NCBI GenBank assembly: GCA_900319275.1
Contig: ONNS01000007.1
Coordinates: 1-64,000 of the forward strand
DNA: 64,000 bases
Direction: 5' to 3'
Origin: an uncultured Eubacteriales bacterium
GTDB lineage: Bacteria; Bacillota; Clostridia; Oscillospirales; Oscillospiraceae
Both the position numbers and the translations under genes were made by a program. Below the pieces are notes generated by a model. The model had not been told where the DNA came from. It ran no database searches and was given only the letters and a program-made list of their open reading frames with translations. Positions 12,993 through 19,787 of this stretch are shown here, one piece after another (position 1 is the first letter of the stretch; every line of letters starts with the position of its first letter).

Positions 12993-14081
12993 TTGTGCCT
13001 GAGTGAGGTTGGATTGGTTTTGAAGCGGATAATTGCACTTGTACTGGTATTGTGTGTTCTGGTTGCGGGCGCACTGTATGTATACCAGAAGGACAAAGCG
13101 GATCAGAGCTATATGCTCCAGATGTATTCTCAGGTTGAGCCGCTGCAGCAGCAGATCGACGAGCTTGAGCGTCAAAAGAAAGCCCTGCAGCAGGAGTATG
13201 AGAAGAAAAAGCGGGATCCCGGTACGATACAGCTTCTTGTGCGCGAGCTCAGCAGCGATGTTTTTGACAAGGTCTATCCGATCATGCGCACGCACGGTGT
13301 TACCGGCGTACTCGGCGTGTCTCTGGCCTCCCGGCCACTCCGCTTCGGCAACAGAGGTATGACGGCCGAGCAGTATAATCGCCTGCTCCTGGACGGCTGG
13401 GGGACCTGCCTTATATACGACGGCAAGAGCTTTGACGGTTACTACAGCGAGATAGAGCGATACATGAGCAGTCTCGAGCTGGCGATGCCGACGGCGATCT
13501 ATTTCCCGAACGGCTATGACGGGACGCTCGAACAGGCGCTGCTGGAGCGCGGCATCACCACCGTGATTGTCAACGCTGCGGACGGACATACCAACACAGT
13601 GACTGAATTCGGACCGATCTGGGTGACAGGCGCCATGCCCTGGAATTACACCGGCGTGACGGGTGATCTGGATCTTCTGGCCGTGACCGAAGGCGGAAAC
13701 CTGACCTTCACGCTCAGCACGAGTGATATCCTCGATCAGTTTGACAGCAAATCTTTTACCGAGATGATGGACAAGTGGTATGTGCTGACTACGGATACGG
13801 AGAATACCCCGTACAGCACGCCAGCACCGAAAAACACGTCCAAGAGCGGCGATGAGAAGGCCAATATCGAGCCGCTGCTGGTTGTCGCTTCATACGAGGC
13901 CGCACGTGCCGCGCATGAGACCGCCTATCAGACCGGATTACAGCTGGATTGGGAACTGCAGACGAAGCTGGATGAACTCAATCGACAGACAGCCGCGCTC
14001 ACCGCACAGATACAGGATATTTATGCCGTGACAAATGCAAACAGAGACAACAGTCTGCTCAAGAGCATTCTGGGACGTTAA
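12993..14081 (+). CDS. Membrane-anchored extracytoplasmic protein, possible degenerate NodB-like barrel
   Basis: About 353-362 residues. An N-terminal membrane anchor (RIIALVLVLCVLVAGALYVY) is followed by a glutamine- and lysine-rich coiled coil (residues about 40-75 of the long form). A globular domain comes next, and a second short helical segment lies at the C-terminus. The globular part has alternating strands and helices ending in residue runs such as MPTAIYFPNGYDGTLEQALLERG and TTVIVN. This recalls the polysaccharide-deacetylase (NodB) barrel, but no metal-binding His-Asp set is seen. It is first in the operon before the CpsC-like gene. Two TTG starts are possible, 12993 (GGAAAG upstream) and 13020 (GTGAGG upstream); the second gives a neater signal anchor. 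The fold guess is inference and the function is unknown. Confidence 0.55.
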   Translation: MCLSEVGLVLKRIIALVLVLCVLVAGALYVYQKDKADQSYMLQMYSQVEPLQQQIDELERQKKALQQEYEKKKRDPGTIQLLVRELSSDVFDKVYPIMRTHGVTGVLGVSLASRPLRFGNRGMTAEQYNRLLLDGWGTCLIYDGKSFDGYYSEIERYMSSLELAMPTAIYFPNGYDGTLEQALLERGITTVIVNAADGHTNTVTEFGPIWVTGAMPWNYTGVTGDLDLLAVTEGGNLTFTLSTSDILDQFDSKSFTEMMDKWYVLTTDTENTPYSTPAPKNTSKSGDEKANIEPLLVVASYEAARAAHETAYQTGLQLDWELQTKLDELNRQTAALTAQIQDIYAVTNANRDNSLLKSILGR

Positions 14082-14093
14082 TTGGAGATTCAC

Positions 14094-14873
14094 ATGGTGA
14101 AGAAAGAAAACGACGAAATTGAGATCGACCTTGCAAAGCTGTTGCTTGCTCTCTGGAGATCCGCGGCGGTGATCCTGCTCGTGGGCATCCTGTTTTCCGC
14201 GGTGGCCTTTCTGTACGCCCAGAGCTTTGTAACCCCCAAGTACGAGGCAAACGCGCTGTTCTATGTCAATAACAGCACGGTCTCACTCTCGAGCGCCGTG
14301 GCGATCACCACCGGCGAGCTCAATGCAGCGTCCGACCTGGTCGATACCTATGTTGCCATTCTGCAGTCGCGCGCCAATATGGAGCTTGTTCTGCAGGAGA
14401 GCGGCGCACCGTATACCTATGAGCAGCTGAGAAAAATGGTCTCAGCCTCGGCTGTAAACTCGACGGGACTGTTTCGTGTGACGGTCACTTCGTCCGATCC
14501 GGAGGAGGCCCGTACGCTTGCAAACGTCATTGCCAATATTCTGCCGGATAAAATTTCCGATATCGTCAACAACAGCTCGGTCGAAGTGGTCGACTATGCA
14601 GTCACCCCGCACAGCCGTGTTTCGCCGAGCTATCTCAAATACGCGATGGTCGGACTGCTGCTCGGTATCGTATTTGCCGGCGCGATCGTGGTGCTCCGCG
14701 ATCTGCAGGATGACGTGATCCACGACGAGGATTATCTGCTGTCGAACTTCGACGCGCCTGTGCTCGCGTCGATCCCGGATCTTGAGGCCAAGGGACAGAA
14801 AAAGTACGGCTATGGCTACGGCTATGGTTACGGCGCTGCCTCCCGCGAAGCCAAGAAGGGAGGAAAAGACTGA
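14094..14873 (+). CDS. CpsC/Wzz-family chain-length regulator and BY-kinase activator
   Basis: A 259-residue membrane protein with the Wzz layout. A cytoplasmic start (EIEIDLAKLLLALWRS) leads into transmembrane helix 1 (about residues 20-42). An extracytoplasmic coiled domain follows, then a second helix near YLKYAMVGLLLGIVFAGAIVVL (about 186-207). The cytoplasmic tail has the form seen in Gram-positive CapA/CpsC activators, which bind and switch on the separate kinase. The ATG at 14094 lies six bases after GGAG. The C-terminal tail ends in five Gly-Tyr steps, encoded at about 14810-14835. The stop overlaps the kinase start (TGATG), indicating coupled translation. Confidence 0.85.
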   Translation: MVKKENDEIEIDLAKLLLALWRSAAVILLVGILFSAVAFLYAQSFVTPKYEANALFYVNNSTVSLSSAVAITTGELNAASDLVDTYVAILQSRANMELVLQESGAPYTYEQLRKMVSASAVNSTGLFRVTVTSSDPEEARTLANVIANILPDKISDIVNNSSVEVVDYAVTPHSRVSPSYLKYAMVGLLLGIVFAGAIVVLRDLQDDVIHDEDYLLSNFDAPVLASIPDLEAKGQKKYGYGYGYGYGAASREAKKGGKD

Positions 14874-15739
14874 TGGCATCCAAAAAGAAAGTGGCTACCC
14901 CCGCCGCAGACCGTGAGCGTCGGGAGATCATGTTCGACAATCTGAGCTTTGCGGCCGCGGAGGCCTATAAGCTGCTGAGAACCAATCTGCTCTTCTCCAC
15001 ACCGGAAAAACCCTGCCGGATCGTCGGCGTGACAAGCTCGATGCGCGGCGAAGGCAAATCCACGACATCTGCGAATATTGCCTATACGATTGCCCAGTCG
15101 GGCAAGCGCGTGCTGCTGATCGACGCGGATATGCGTCTGCCGACAGCGCACACGAAGATCGGCGTCAAGGCGGCGCCGGGACTTTCGAACCTGCTGGCCG
15201 GGCTCTCGCGTGAGAAGAACGCCGTTCAGGTTTCGCCCTATTACGAGAACTGGTATATTCTTGCGGCGGGCGATATCCCTCCGAACCCCTCGGAGCTGCT
15301 CGGATCGCAGCGTATGGAGGCCCTGCTCAACAGTCTGTCGGAGATTTTTGACTATATCATCATCGATCTGCCCCCGGTCGACATTGTCGCTGATGCGCTG
15401 GTGATTTCTCCCTGGACAGACGGCCTGATCGTCGTTGTCCGCCAGAATTATACGTCCCGCCGCGCGCTGGACGAATGCATGTACCAAATTCGCAAAATCG
15501 GAGCCAAGTTCCTTGGCTTTGTAATGACCGACGTCTCGATGGAAAAGAGCGGCTACGGCAAATACGGCAAATACGGCAAGTACGGCAAATACGGGAAATA
15601 TAAACAGTACGGCTATGAATACGGCTCGGCGGAGGGAGCCTCCGGCGGCAGGAAGAGCGATGCTTTTATCAAAGCGACAGGAGCCTCGAGCATGTCCGCG
15701 GCAGAGCCGGAGAGTGAAAAGTCCGAGTCTGACCAATGA
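14873..15739 (+). CDS. BY-family protein tyrosine kinase (CpsD/CapB-like)
   Basis: A 288-residue cytoplasmic ATPase that autophosphorylates on tyrosine. Walker A is SSMRGEGKST (Lys 62), Walker A' is LLIDADMRLP (residues 81-90) and Walker B is YIIIDLPP (Asp 165). This is the diagnostic trio of bacterial tyrosine kinases. The C-terminal tyrosine cluster has nine Tyr between residues 228 and 250, mostly in YGK steps, followed by a tail with SSMSAAEPE. It needs the preceding CpsC-like protein for activation and is the expected substrate of the following PHP phosphatase. It overlaps both neighbours by one and four bases. In typical loci such kinases gate polymer length and export; here no polymerase or transferase is nearby. 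Confidence 0.95.
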   Translation: MASKKKVATPAADRERREIMFDNLSFAAAEAYKLLRTNLLFSTPEKPCRIVGVTSSMRGEGKSTTSANIAYTIAQSGKRVLLIDADMRLPTAHTKIGVKAAPGLSNLLAGLSREKNAVQVSPYYENWYILAAGDIPPNPSELLGSQRMEALLNSLSEIFDYIIIDLPPVDIVADALVISPWTDGLIVVVRQNYTSRRALDECMYQIRKIGAKFLGFVMTDVSMEKSGYGKYGKYGKYGKYGKYKQYGYEYGSAEGASGGRKSDAFIKATGASSMSAAEPESEKSESDQ

Positions 15740-16437
15740 TCGATTTTCACAGCCATATTCTCCCGGCCATTGACGACGGCAGCCAGAGCGTGGAGGAAAG
15801 CCTGTCCATGTTGCGCGCACTGAAGGACCAGGGCGTGGACACTGTAGTTGCCACATCTCATTTTTATGCGACGCACAGAAGTCCGGAATCATACCTGAAT
15901 CGCAGGAATGCGGCATTTGAAGTACTAAAACAGGCCTTGACAGATGACTGTCCGAGGATTATACTGGGGGCTGAGGTCCTGTATTTCCCAGGAATTTCCC
16001 GTATGGACGCTCTTGAATCCCTCTGTACAGAGGGAACGGATTCACTGCTGCTCGAGATGCCCTTCACCGCGTGGAGCAGGCAGATGGTCGCCGAAGTCAA
16101 TGAAATGGCGAGAGCGCACCGTGTCCAACTGGTCATGGCCCACATTGAGCGCTATTATTTCAAGCAGGATGTCTCGGTCTGGGATGAGTTCCTGCGCCAG
16201 GGGATCCTGATGCAGTCCAACGCTGATTTCTTTCTCCCGTTCTGGGAGGGGAGAAAGGCCTTGAAGCTGCTGCGCGAGGGTCGTATCCATCTGCTCGGTA
16301 CGGATTGCCACAATATGCGCGAGCGGCGCCCGCGGATGGACGAGGCGGCCTCTCGGATTCGAAGGGCGCTGGGGGAAGAAACCTTACAGGAGGTCAATAC
16401 GCTCGGACATCAACTCCTCAGGGAGGTTTTGGCGTGA
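15736..16437 (+). CDS. PHP-type protein tyrosine phosphatase (CpsB/YwqE-like)
   Basis: A 233-residue metal-dependent phosphatase of the PHP superfamily that removes phosphate from the BY-kinase tyrosine cluster. The metal ligands can be read in order: the opening DFHSHILPAIDDGS (His-x-His), a mid-protein Glu in LGAEVLYFPG, His in VMAHIERYYF, and the late LGTDCHNMRERRP. The length matches CpsB/CapC proteins. The start ATG overlaps the kinase stop (ATGA), and the next gene begins inside its stop (GTGA). Confidence 0.95.
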   Translation: MIDFHSHILPAIDDGSQSVEESLSMLRALKDQGVDTVVATSHFYATHRSPESYLNRRNAAFEVLKQALTDDCPRIILGAEVLYFPGISRMDALESLCTEGTDSLLLEMPFTAWSRQMVAEVNEMARAHRVQLVMAHIERYYFKQDVSVWDEFLRQGILMQSNADFFLPFWEGRKALKLLREGRIHLLGTDCHNMRERRPRMDEAASRIRRALGEETLQEVNTLGHQLLREVLA

Positions 16438-17189
16438 AGAAAAGACAATGTCTTTTCAGTCTGCTGCTTTTAGTGACGCTTCTTTTATCCGGTTGTACCG
16501 AGAGGGAGAACACCGATCCCTTCGAATGGCGGCTTCAAAACATGGCTGCCGGGGCCGAGAAGACATTTGAAAAGCGCGGCGACAAGCTGACAGACAGTGC
16601 AGGATCTGAGTTTATTGATTTTGCCTCACTGCAGGAGAAAAATCCTGAACTCTATGCGTGGCTGTATATTCCCGGTTCAGAGATCAGCGCTCCTATTGCC
16701 CAGAGTGAGTCGGGAGATATCACCTTTTATCAATCCCATGGCGCCGACGGCGCCGAGAATAAGCGCGGCTGTCTCTATACGCATTATCGCTATAGTGATA
16801 AGCACTTTGCTGAGCCTGTTTCCGTTATCTACGGAAAGACGCTCTCGGGAGTCGGGGTACTCAGCGACTTAGAAACGATCTACCGTTCTCGCGAAGGTTT
16901 ACAGCAGCATCAGGATCTTATTGTTTTCACGGCGGATTCGGTGTTGCGCTATCGGGTTTTCTGCGCGACTGAGTTTTCAGATGTGCTGATCTCCCGCGAT
17001 TATAATGAATTCCAGACAGAAGCGGATACCGCCGCCTTTCTGGAAGATATCCGGAATTACCATACACTGCAGCGTCAAGCAGATGACAGCGTCAGCGTAA
17101 GTTCCGGTGACCGTGTGCTCGTCCTGTCGACAGTCCTGTCACGGGATGCGGACAAACGGTTTTTAGTTGTGGCTAAACTGGTTGATTAG
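16434..17189 (+). CDS. Lipoprotein with class B sortase fold, catalytic His and Cys replaced (pseudo-sortase)
   Basis: 251 residues starting at a GTG that overlaps the previous stop, with GGAGG seven bases upstream. A lipobox LLLSGC puts the lipidated Cys at residue 21, so the protein is anchored on the outer face of the membrane. Residues 70-250 follow sortase B: LYAWLYIPGSEISAPIAQ, NKRGCLYTHYRYSD, VSVIYGKT, then VLVLSTVLSRDADKRFLVVAKLV. Active SrtB has IYGHN and TLSTC in these places. Here the His position is Lys 135 and the Cys position is Val 234, while the Arg (Arg 242) remains. A transpeptidase is therefore unlikely, and a binding or scaffolding role is possible. It sits between the phosphatase and the secreted protein. 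Confidence 0.8.
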   Translation: MKKRQCLFSLLLLVTLLLSGCTERENTDPFEWRLQNMAAGAEKTFEKRGDKLTDSAGSEFIDFASLQEKNPELYAWLYIPGSEISAPIAQSESGDITFYQSHGADGAENKRGCLYTHYRYSDKHFAEPVSVIYGKTLSGVGVLSDLETIYRSREGLQQHQDLIVFTADSVLRYRVFCATEFSDVLISRDYNEFQTEADTAAFLEDIRNYHTLQRQADDSVSVSSGDRVLVLSTVLSRDADKRFLVVAKLVD

Positions 17190-17239
17190 ACCAATTAGCA
17201 TATTAAAATTCCCATAGTGGATGAAAGGAAGGAAACCCC

Positions 17240-17773
17240 ATGAAGAAAGTTCTCTCTGTTGTTCTTGCCGTTATGATGCTGGCCAGCCTGAGCGTTTATG
17301 CTTTTGCTGATGGCAATCCCAGCGTTACGACGAAGGCCGTCCCTGCGTTCGAGGAAGAGGCTGTTACCGATGATGGCACCGCTGTCAAAGTTGAGCTGAC
17401 CTCCGCTGCCGATGCTGAGGGCGAAGTGAAGGAAGCCCTTGATGCTGCCGTTGCTGCTGTTTCTAGCGAGGAAGGTCTGGCCGAAGCTCTGAAGGCTGCC
17501 GAAGTCGAGCTCAATGCTGAGGATAAGGCCTCTGTCGGCGATGTGTTCTTCTTTGATGCGAAGGATGACAATGGCGAGTCCGTTTTCAAAGCTGATGGTT
17601 CTGTCAAGGTCAAGGCCAAGATCGAACTGCCCAAGAACCTGCTGGCTGCCCTGCAGCTCGTCGATGGCAACTGGGTCGAGGTCAACTTTGCTCCCGATGG
17701 CAAGGGCGGCTTCTGCCCCGTTCTCTCCCACGCCGGTGTTGTTGCCTTTGTTGTTAGCGCTGAGAACGGCTGA
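17240..17773 (+). CDS. Small secreted protein of unknown function
   Basis: 177 residues with a clear signal peptide (KKVLSVVLAVMMLASLSVYA, cleavage likely after AFA at residue 23). The mature part is acidic, rich in Ala, Val and Glu, and free of membrane segments. Its middle is helix-prone (EALDAAVAAVSSEEGLAEALKA-like). Its end is beta-rich with two aromatic patches, VDGNWVEVNF and GKGGFCPVLSHAGVVAFVV, which recall domains that face cell-wall or surface partners. The AGGAAGGAAACCCC leader gives a good ribosome site. Codon choice (GCT, GTT, AAG, CTG) differs from the GCC/GTC-rich neighbours and resembles tuf and rpsL, which suggests high expression. I do not recognise the family. Confidence 0.7.
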   Translation: MKKVLSVVLAVMMLASLSVYAFADGNPSVTTKAVPAFEEEAVTDDGTAVKVELTSAADAEGEVKEALDAAVAAVSSEEGLAEALKAAEVELNAEDKASVGDVFFFDAKDDNGESVFKADGSVKVKAKIELPKNLLAALQLVDGNWVEVNFAPDGKGGFCPVLSHAGVVAFVVSAENG

Positions 17774-17783
17774 TTAAGCTTGC

Positions 17784-18797
17784 ATGCGTCAAACGCGCAA
17801 ACGTAAGAAATCAAGGAGCTCCGTCCTGGTCACCGCCCTTTTGTTGGCGGTGATCGGGGCGGGCTTTCTTGGTATTCGCTTGTATGAACAGCGTATCGAA
17901 GCCGAGCAGGCCGCACTCCATGCGGATGAGCCCTATCAGAATCAACAGATCGAGATCAATTACGATGGGGTAGACTACCGGCTCAGGGACGATCTGGATA
18001 CCTATCTCTTCATAGGCATCGACAAGTTCACCGAGGATCTGCCGCAGGAGCAATACTACCGGAACTTCCAGCAGTGCGACTTTCTGTTTCTGATGATCGT
18101 CGATCACAGCAATAAGAGCTACTGCGCACTGCATATCAACCGCGATACCATGGCCGAGATCCGTCAACTTGGCCTAAACGGTCAGACGGTGGGTACGGAA
18201 ATCGGTCAGCTGGCGCTCTCGCACACCTACGGCTCCGGCGGTAAGGACAGCTGCCGCAATACTGTCTGGTCTGTCTCCCGTTTCCTGTATGACGTGCCGA
18301 TCGAACACTATGTGTCGATCACGATGGACGGCGTGCCGGTGCTCAACGATACGGTCGGCGGGGTTGTTGTCCATATCAGTGACGATTTCTCGACGGTCGA
18401 TCCCACGATGGAGACGGGGAAGGATGTCCGTCTTTCCGGCAATCAGGCGCTGCTCTATGTGCGCTCCCGCATGGCAGTGGGAGATGGGACGAACCTCAGC
18501 CGTATGCGCCGCCAGCGAGAATACATCCAGGCGCTCTATCAGCAGATGGATCAGCGCATGCAGACAGACAGTCATTTTGGCTACCGCCTGGCGAATGCTC
18601 TGGCTGATTACGTGGTTTCGGATCTTACAACCGACGAAATGTCGAAGGCGGCGGATACGCTGCGTGATTACCGGTTCACAACGATCTATTCCATAGAGGG
18701 TGAAGCCAGCTACGATTCGATCTTTGTGGAGTTTTACCCCGTTGAAACGGCACTGCAGCAGCAGGTGATCAAGCTGTTTTTCGAAAGAATCGAGTGA
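17784..18797 (+). CDS. LytR-CpsA-Psr (LCP) family protein
   Basis: 337 residues: a basic cytoplasmic start, one transmembrane helix (about residues 13-31) and an extracytoplasmic LCP domain. LCP enzymes move lipid-linked glycopolymers onto peptidoglycan. Supporting motifs are DTYLFIGID, the arginine in INRDTMAEI, VPIEHYVSITMDGVPVLNDTVGG, and the late LLYVRSRMAVGDGTNLSRMRRQREYIQAL. These hold the conserved Arg residues that bind the polyprenyl pyrophosphate. It starts 11 bases after the secreted-protein gene and closes the operon before a strong terminator. In context it would be the enzyme that attaches whatever polymer the operon controls. Confidence 0.92.
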   Translation: MRQTRKRKKSRSSVLVTALLLAVIGAGFLGIRLYEQRIEAEQAALHADEPYQNQQIEINYDGVDYRLRDDLDTYLFIGIDKFTEDLPQEQYYRNFQQCDFLFLMIVDHSNKSYCALHINRDTMAEIRQLGLNGQTVGTEIGQLALSHTYGSGGKDSCRNTVWSVSRFLYDVPIEHYVSITMDGVPVLNDTVGGVVVHISDDFSTVDPTMETGKDVRLSGNQALLYVRSRMAVGDGTNLSRMRRQREYIQALYQQMDQRMQTDSHFGYRLANALADYVVSDLTTDEMSKAADTLRDYRFTTIYSIEGEASYDSIFVEFYPVETALQQQVIKLFFERIE

Positions 18798-18899: not shown

Positions 18900-19787
18900 A
18901 TGATGGAAAAACATGATCATGCCAGGGCAAAGCGCAGACGTGCCCTGTGGATGTACGTTCTGTCGGCGCTGGTTCTGACGGTGCTGCTGTTTGCGGCTGC
19001 ACGGCTATCGGGCTGTGGCAGTGGACGCACAGAGCTGCCGGACGACACACTGCCGAGCGCATCCGTTGAGCCTGCTCAACGACGGGAGGAGACGGCTGTG
19101 GATCAACAACTGTTGAAAAACACCCTGCAGGGGCTGTCGGATGGTTTTCGCGGCAGCTGTTCGATCGGGTATACCGATCTGCGAACCGGCGAACGGATCC
19201 TGATTGGGGATAGACCGATGGTTGCTGCAAGTCTGATCAAGCTCTATGTGGCCGAGGCCTATTACGCAGCAGTCCATGACGGCGTGATAGCCGATTCCGA
19301 GCGCGAGCAGCTGCGCCTGATGCTCAGCGAGAGCGATAACGCCGCCTGTAACGCCGTGATCGAGCTGCTGGGCATGGAGAAGATCAACGCCTATATCGCG
19401 CAGCGCTACCCGTCCACACAGCTCAACCGCCGTATGCTCGAGCAAAACGGGTTGGAAAACTATACCTCGGCCGCGGACTGCTGTGCACTGCTCGAGCGGC
19501 TGTGGAACTCGAATTTTGTCTCAGCGGAGGCCTCGGCGCAGACGCTCGAGGCGCTCAAGGCGCAGATCCGTCGGGAAAAGATCCCCGCCGTGCTGCCGGA
19601 TGAGATCGTCTGCGCCAATAAAACCGGCGAGCTGGACGGCGTCGAAAATGACGCGGCGATCGTGATGCTGCCGGACGGCCGTGCCTATGCGCTGTGCGTT
19701 ATGGTCCAGACCGACATTGGAAACGGCAATGCGATGGAGTTTATCCGTTCCGTATCGGCCGCGGTGTATACCATTGTGACGCAATAA
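18900..19787 (+). CDS. Membrane-anchored serine hydrolase of class A beta-lactamase fold
   Basis: 295 residues with a single membrane segment at about residues 16-36 and the beta-lactamase2 (PF13354) motif set. The nucleophile motif is ASLIK (Ser 111, Lys 114), the second motif is SDN (145-147) and the third is KTG (241-243). The omega-loop ExxLN that supplies the deacylating Glu in true class A beta-lactamases is not evident. A cell-wall peptidase or esterase role is therefore as likely as antibiotic hydrolysis. The first ATG lies ten bases after the preceding terminator without a clear ribosome site; the second ATG at 18903 is equally possible. No promoter stands out, so it may depend on read-through from the operon upstream. 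Confidence 0.75.
   Translation: MMEKHDHARAKRRRALWMYVLSALVLTVLLFAAARLSGCGSGRTELPDDTLPSASVEPAQRREETAVDQQLLKNTLQGLSDGFRGSCSIGYTDLRTGERILIGDRPMVAASLIKLYVAEAYYAAVHDGVIADSEREQLRLMLSESDNAACNAVIELLGMEKINAYIAQRYPSTQLNRRMLEQNGLENYTSAADCCALLERLWNSNFVSAEASAQTLEALKAQIRREKIPAVLPDEIVCANKTGELDGVENDAAIVMLPDGRAYALCVMVQTDIGNGNAMEFIRSVSAAVYTIVTQ

Follow-up and report, generated by a model that had tools for sequence, protein, structure and literature searches.

A capsule-type kinase operon in a 64,000-nucleotide stretch of DNA from an uncultured Eubacteriales bacterium (GenBank assembly GCA_900319275.1, contig ONNS01000007.1, positions 1 to 64,000; here called the window) encodes a pseudo-sortase, pSrt (16434..17189, forward strand, 251 amino acids), with a predicted class B sortase fold, in which the catalytic histidine and cysteine are replaced. 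Its gene is followed by that of a small secreted protein, X (17240..17773, forward strand), which has no sorting motif, whereas its counterparts in operons with intact sortases have one. Both catalytic residues are absent from all 17 members of the clade to which pSrt belongs. Tentatively, and with a chance that we put somewhat below even, we propose that this class B sortase homologue is a lipid-anchored docking protein, which holds X non-covalently.

Loss of catalytic residues in the pSrt clade

The open reading frame (ORF) of pSrt starts with GTG and continues without a break along its whole length. It contains the sortase-type segments VIYGK, LSTV and RFLVVAKL and matches the class B sortase family TIGR03064 with E 1.8e-18 and 66.7 bits, below the cut-off of 153.75. 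A sequence search of the PDB gave 15 matches at E<=1 (best E 5.3e-10), all of them sortase B by name or hypothetical and uncharacterised entries of the same kind; the Pfam scan yielded no family at E<=1 and a PHROGs search nothing useful. Judged by sequence, the resemblance to class B sortases is far beyond chance. The predicted model of pSrt has the class B sortase fold with an N-terminal helix, and contains the sortase barrel whose absence would have spoken against the fold assignment of the original prediction.

Alignment bore out the earlier residue assignments as well: Lys135 (codon AAG, 16836-16838) occupies the column of the catalytic histidine and Val234 (GTC, 17133-17135) that of the cysteine, while the catalytic arginine is kept as Arg242 (CGG, 17157-17159; all on the forward strand). 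The N-terminus reads as a putative signal peptide with the lipobox LSGC at residues 18-21 (16485..16496, forward strand), whose Cys21 would make pSrt a bacterial lipoprotein, as had been supposed. By predicted fold and sequence, pSrt thus groups with class B sortases, and it stands outside the class B sortase enzymes because a test for histidine and cysteine showed both to be missing.

A search of 5.8 billion proteins returned 18 homologues of pSrt, the 15 closest being 54-94% identical over the alignment. These 15, pSrt itself and L041, from a genome of the same genus, form the clade set (n=17), which was compared with 20 operon sortases picked as intact (the intact L116, L119 and L128 are not in the alignment). 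All 17 clade members have lysine in the histidine column, against histidine in 20 of 20 intact sortases. The cysteine column varies within the clade (Lys in eight, Ile in five, Val in three, Arg in one) and holds cysteine in all 19 intact sortases that reach it, the twentieth running off its contig. Arginine and lipobox are retained in 17/17, and Gln100, Tyr115, His117, Lys135 and Cys177 are each found in 17/17, five positions at which Leu, Phe, Glu, His and Ala, respectively, predominate in the intact set. Some members are closely related (P0002 shares 95% identity with pSrt; P0012 and L041 are apparently near-identical), so that the set does not amount to 17 independent cases.

A lone mutation in the window copy was rejected, since the loss is common to the clade; intact homologues, which the original prediction had named as a sign of such a mutation, do exist. 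One of the three remaining homologues, P0017, is intact; the catalytic histidine and cysteine are missing from the other two, P0018 (Gln, His) and P0019 (gap, Pro). A pattern built from pSrt alone found no relative when genome contigs were scanned with it.

The lipobox is not limited to dead sortases, that is, those without the catalytic residues. A loose pattern fits five of the 20 intact ones (L020, L022, L023, L044 and L049; L052 was scanned in part), among which L049 alone resembles a real lipobox by eye; the intact P0062 also starts lipobox-like, and the pattern matches neither L043 nor L048, which are dead.

The substrate groove

In a published model of BaSrtB, as far as the available text of the source describes it, Leu106 and Tyr138 lie in the pocket for the P3 proline (PMC11987632). 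Matched by hand, from the PDB-search alignment with our own adjustment of one gap, these positions correspond to Gln100 and Tyr133 of pSrt. On this alignment the old substrate pocket appears partly kept and partly rebuilt. The arginine and part of the groove are kept; the P3 pocket residue is changed, being Gln throughout the clade.

The clade-specific Cys177 (16962-16964) raises the possibility that pSrt is still an enzyme, its nucleophile having shifted to this cysteine, or Lys135 serving a new chemistry. The residue is invariant in the clade, and intact operon sortases have Ala (19/20) or Gly (1/20) in its place. It sits, however, within a predicted strand (170-182), and its counterpart in BaSrtB, again matched by hand on the PDB-search alignment, is position 181; the accessible portion of PMC11987632 does not name this position as a ligand contact. 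Six other dead sortases that were checked have no cysteine there, and X of the window offers no sorting motif to cut. We regard a surviving enzyme as extremely improbable.

Protein X and its lack of a sorting signal

The C-terminal sorting signal of a sortase substrate combines a motif with a hydrophobic stretch and basic tail; X of the window lacks this signal. It ends in Glu-Asn-Gly (17762..17770, forward strand), directly followed by the stop codon, and all 23 aligned sequences (X and 22 homologues) share this Glu and final Gly. Neither the motif [SA][PA]xTG nor any TG occurs in the last 60 residues of X or of any of the 22 homologues. We rejected the idea that a frameshift or an assembly error had altered the end of the gene: the next gene, for a LytR-CpsA-Psr (LCP) ligase, begins 10 bases past the stop, so there is no space for a hidden sorting signal.

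Profile searches were less informative about X. It has no PDB match at E<=0.001 (best 5.7e-2). The NCBIfam LPXTG-anchor model scored above its cut-off in two of eight X proteins from intact-sortase operons (L044 and L012) and was absent at E<=0.01 from the other six and from two X of dead-sortase operons; with Pfam Gram_pos_anchor, X of L012 passes, that of L044 falls just under, and the other four of the six X scanned are not listed. Hydropathy by itself fails to separate the groups (2.0 in the last 45 residues of X against 2.1-3.1 after the motif in 20 X of intact operons); the hydrophobic end of X is a predicted strand without a basic tail.

In five pSrt homologues (P0004, P0008, P0010, P0011 and P0014) the longest contig is as long as that of an X homologue (1696, 4493, 7615, 4253 and 3537, the last length occurring for two X homologues), which suggests that they adjoin X homologues. 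In the window's own genome one class B sortase is intact and scores above the TIGR03064 cut-off (L002, G000:C52:5428-5991). The motif pattern found no other sorting-signal protein in the three best loci of this genome or beside that sortase; its one Gram_pos_anchor match scores 20.4 against a 20-bit cut-off, and the same search also gives matches at E<=1 in 13 of the 14 control genomes.

Sortase state and the signal on X

The order Wzz, BY-kinase, CpsB, sortase, X and LCP ligase is found in relatives too; in L116, L119 and L128 the sortase is placed after LCP. Where the operon has an intact sortase, X ends in, for example, SPQTG, SPKTG or SAQTG, followed by a hydrophobic stretch and basic tail. 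L050 (G358:C79) is an exception, its X ending in SPQTGYD and a stop, with motif and no hydrophobic tail, next to an intact sortase.

With a motif pattern picked after the sequences had been read, strict [SA][PA]xTG is found on X in 20 of 21 intact-sortase operons, against none of the 14 in which the sortase is dead (6) or absent (8). The intact exception is L020, whose X has APQTD. A looser T[GD] pattern separates the groups as 21/21 against 1/14 (L048), and any TG in the last 60 residues likewise as 21/21 against 1/14 (L129). In the dead-sortase group X lacks the basic hydrophobic tail in five of six operons; X of L048 keeps it, with AARTD. Among operons without a sortase the tail is absent in L064-L067 and present without motif in L100, L103, L113 and L129, where X may have turned into a membrane protein, since the hydrophobic, basic tail is kept. 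In the operons assessed, a dead or missing sortase goes with an X that lacks the sorting motif, and this lends stronger support to the link between pSrt and the neighbouring secreted protein that was originally suggested.

These counts rest on the following loci. A sortase search of the genus matched 67 of 102 genomes at E<=1e-12, many of them weakly, and loci were taken from the best seven and the own genome; L040 has no such operon and was not used. Of 29 loci from other genomes, the 16 with kinase and/or CpsB directly upstream were analysed and 13 were not. A first set of 27 CpsB places in other genomes comprised six in hand, 20 fetched and one (G224) not fetched; 13 of the 20 (L071-L083) gave no sortase hit, X was not sought there, and ORFs were read in L071 only. 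A second set of 53 comprised 18 in hand or from the own genome and 35 fetched, of which seven were counted. L121 (sortase cut), L122 (other gene order) and L101, L102 and L104 (no X-like ORF) were not counted, and the remaining 23, none with a sortase hit, were screened for a sorting-signal-like ORF, not for a tail-less X. Also left out of the 21 and 14 were L045 and L051, where X runs off the contig, and L068, L069 and L070, where no X was found; L062 and L063 (another gene order) and L054 and L056-L058 (no CpsB beside the sortase) were kept apart.

Recurrence of dead sortases

A tree of 40 operons was built from four concatenated proteins with IQ-TREE. It requires at least three changes between dead and active sortase and six between active and inactive, the direction not being given by the tree. 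Because regain of both histidine and cysteine is unlikely, we read these changes as losses; transfer of an intact sortase-X pair is also possible. The genus clade of 15 operons includes three with active, five with dead and seven without sortase, and in four supported independent pairs the change is in the same direction in all (p 0.125).

The second dead lineage is represented by L046, with Ser for His, His for Cys, the arginine kept and a lipobox. Together with P0042-P0048, it shows Ser/His/Arg in 8/8 sequences (P0048 is without N-terminus). Of the further hits among the 30 of its search, P0049 ends before the cysteine position, P0050 has Arg/Ser/Arg, and P0051-P0071 (21/30) are intact. Further dead forms are L043 (Arg/Gly) and L055 (Asp/Glu), which may trace with L046 to one loss on the tree. 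We hold it possible, with some reserve, that pseudo-sortases are recurrent surface proteins of capsule-type kinase operons, in which catalysis was repeatedly lost alongside the substrate's signal, in at least two lineages, giving conserved non-covalent docking lipoproteins.

Two further observations concern sortase-like proteins. In two Lachnospiraceae metagenome-assembled genomes (L062:8704-9591 and L063:530-1432), another Cys-less sortase-like protein is encoded upstream of CpsB, and a small tail-less secreted protein after LCP. The first 34 residues of P0055 are those of the dead P0043, yet its domain has intact His, Cys and Arg; by its sequence, P0055 would be a chimera of assembly or of evolution.

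Constraint or decay

Divergence at nonsynonymous (dN) and synonymous (dS) sites was computed by NG86 for one pair, window against L041. For pSrt (57% identity) dN is 0.33 and dS 2.87, which is saturated; the five other operon genes have dS 0.86-1.77, and under either dS the dN/dS ratio of pSrt is about 0.1-0.4. X has dN 0.29 and dS 1.0, and the neighbours have dN 0.05-0.16. Neutral copies with 0.4 to 1.5 changes per site would accumulate on average 7-11 stops and keep 12-45% identity. From the ratio and this comparison we conclude that pSrt is constrained, less so than the surrounding proteins, in this one pair. With the clade-wide loss of catalytic residues and a predicted fold that appears to be retained, pSrt can be described as a putative pseudoenzyme, the constraint being drawn from that pair.

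Decay would proceed differently: the signal on X would be lost first, the sortase would become useless and drift slowly towards deletion. The four tail-less X of the same genus without any sortase (L064-L067) suit such a relic, as do the position of sortase-less L065 as sister to dead-sortase L046 on the tree and a dN of pSrt above that of the operon enzymes. Its gene is unbroken, however, new residues at or near the old active site are fixed in 17/17, dN/dS is well under 1 in the single testable pair, and there are two dead lineages, each a conserved lipoprotein family. A relic therefore seems to us distinctly unlikely.

A proposed role for pSrt

In the ancestral operon, beside the capsule or exopolysaccharide machinery, an intact sortase presumably anchored X covalently to the wall, as one step in attaching the capsule; we presume this because intact sortases pair with motif-bearing X in related operons. 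In the window lineage X would have come to lack its sorting signal, and the sortase its histidine and cysteine, yet with the predicted fold, arginine, part of the groove and lipobox kept. The rebuilt groove (Lys135, Gln100, His117) may bind X, perhaps by its C-terminal Glu-x-Gly, or a complex of X and polymer, and would do so at the membrane, where the LCP ligase joins polymer to the wall.

The location of the gene suggests another role, as a retooled sensor or regulator of the kinase and phosphatase or of the polymer machinery, whose ligand would be wall polymer, lipid II or another protein rather than X. The operon is of the capsule kinase type, pSrt directly follows CpsB with start and stop codons overlapping (GTGA; GGAGG lies upstream), and a sortase groove normally also meets a wall nucleophile. 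A lipoprotein, however, has no cytoplasmic part with which to contact kinase or phosphatase, and the sortase state tracks the tail of X (features of the kinase were not part of the comparison). The regulation of the kinase operon that had originally been suggested gained no support from the present results. A sensor or regulator is in our view unlikely, if credible.

Several points weigh against docking of X by pSrt. The changed P3 pocket residue argues against simple retention of sorting-motif binding. The four same-genus operons with tail-less X and no sortase (L064-L067) indicate that X is not always in need of one, and X of one of them, L065, ends in EVG; X of the dead-sortase operons L043, L046, L055 and L048 has no Glu-x-Gly end, and that of L048 fits the looser T[GD] pattern. 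In L122 (G202:C58), where the genes are ordered differently and an intact sortase follows the BY-kinase, the 7.5 kb fetched contain no ORF with a sorting signal. With four pairs the independent-pair test cannot attain significance, selection was tested on a single pair whose dS for pSrt is saturated, and evolution is faster in pSrt and X than in the rest of the operon. Finally, according to the part of the report available, the SPQTG protein CD2768 of Clostridioides difficile is not wall-anchored in cells (PMC5569036), so a motif by itself is no proof of anchoring.

Sortases have been studied as enzymes and drug targets. If docking by pSrt is true, a conserved sortase fold that has neither histidine nor cysteine, and whose substrate lost its signal alongside, would serve as a natural experiment on the uses of the fold apart from catalysis. 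It would also offer capsule operons a testable, non-covalent way of displaying proteins at the surface. Where 'class B sortase' is annotated close to such operons, the residues should be checked.

Other genes of the operon

The genes from 12993 to 18797 all lie on the forward strand. A gene without a family above cut-off (12993..14081), which recurs in same-genus operons, precedes those for the Wzz/CpsC chain-length determinant (14082..14873; PF02706, E 8.2e-17), the CpsD-like BY-kinase (14873..15739; TIGR01007, E 4.3e-56) and the CpsB/CapC tyrosine phosphatase (15736..16437; PF19567, E 1.3e-37). The kinase carries six overlapping copies of a Tyr-Gly-Lys repeat at its C-terminus (15545-15616), likely a tyrosine cluster for autophosphorylation. 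The LCP glycopolymer ligase (17784..18797; PF03816, E 3.9e-23) follows X, and after it lies a beta-lactamase-family protein (18900-19787; PF13354, E 1.8e-41), whose NCBIfam scores are far under the cut-offs of named class A beta-lactamases.

Comparison with known systems

In the open-access literature searched, we found no description of a naturally dead sortase without its catalytic residues. With class B sortases (SrtB; TIGR03064, PDB 4LFD, 2OQW and 5GYJ) pSrt shares the predicted fold, the N-terminal helix, the arginine and the YG and LS/LT framework; it differs in lacking the catalytic His and Cys, in falling under the TIGR03064 cut-off, in its N-terminal lipobox and in the changed P3 pocket.

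SrtB of C. difficile, which recognises (S/P)PXTG substrates (PMC4155245, PMC5569036), cuts SPQTG and SPKTG peptides in vitro (PMC4155245), and the same two motifs are found on X of related operons. Unlike pSrt this enzyme is active, through Cys209, and the accessible text of the two papers describes no dead homologue (PMC4155245, PMC5569036). Without the whole signal, CD3392 and CD2537 are reported there in the supernatant; with the motif alone removed, CD3392 is trapped in the membrane and CD2537 remains with the wall (PMC5569036).

Similar in setting is SrtB4, a class B sortase of Mediterraneibacter gnavus whose gene shares a capsule cluster with those for LCP and for a kinase and phosphatase. 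As far as the text at hand relates, deleting it removes the capsule from the surface, complementation brings the capsule back, and candidate targets that bear sorting signals are reported near the sortase genes (PMC13121745). Compared by description, that cluster and the operon of the window are alike in combining a class B sortase with an LCP ligase and a BY-kinase/phosphatase pair; the window's sortase is dead, and the X beside it is without a sorting signal.
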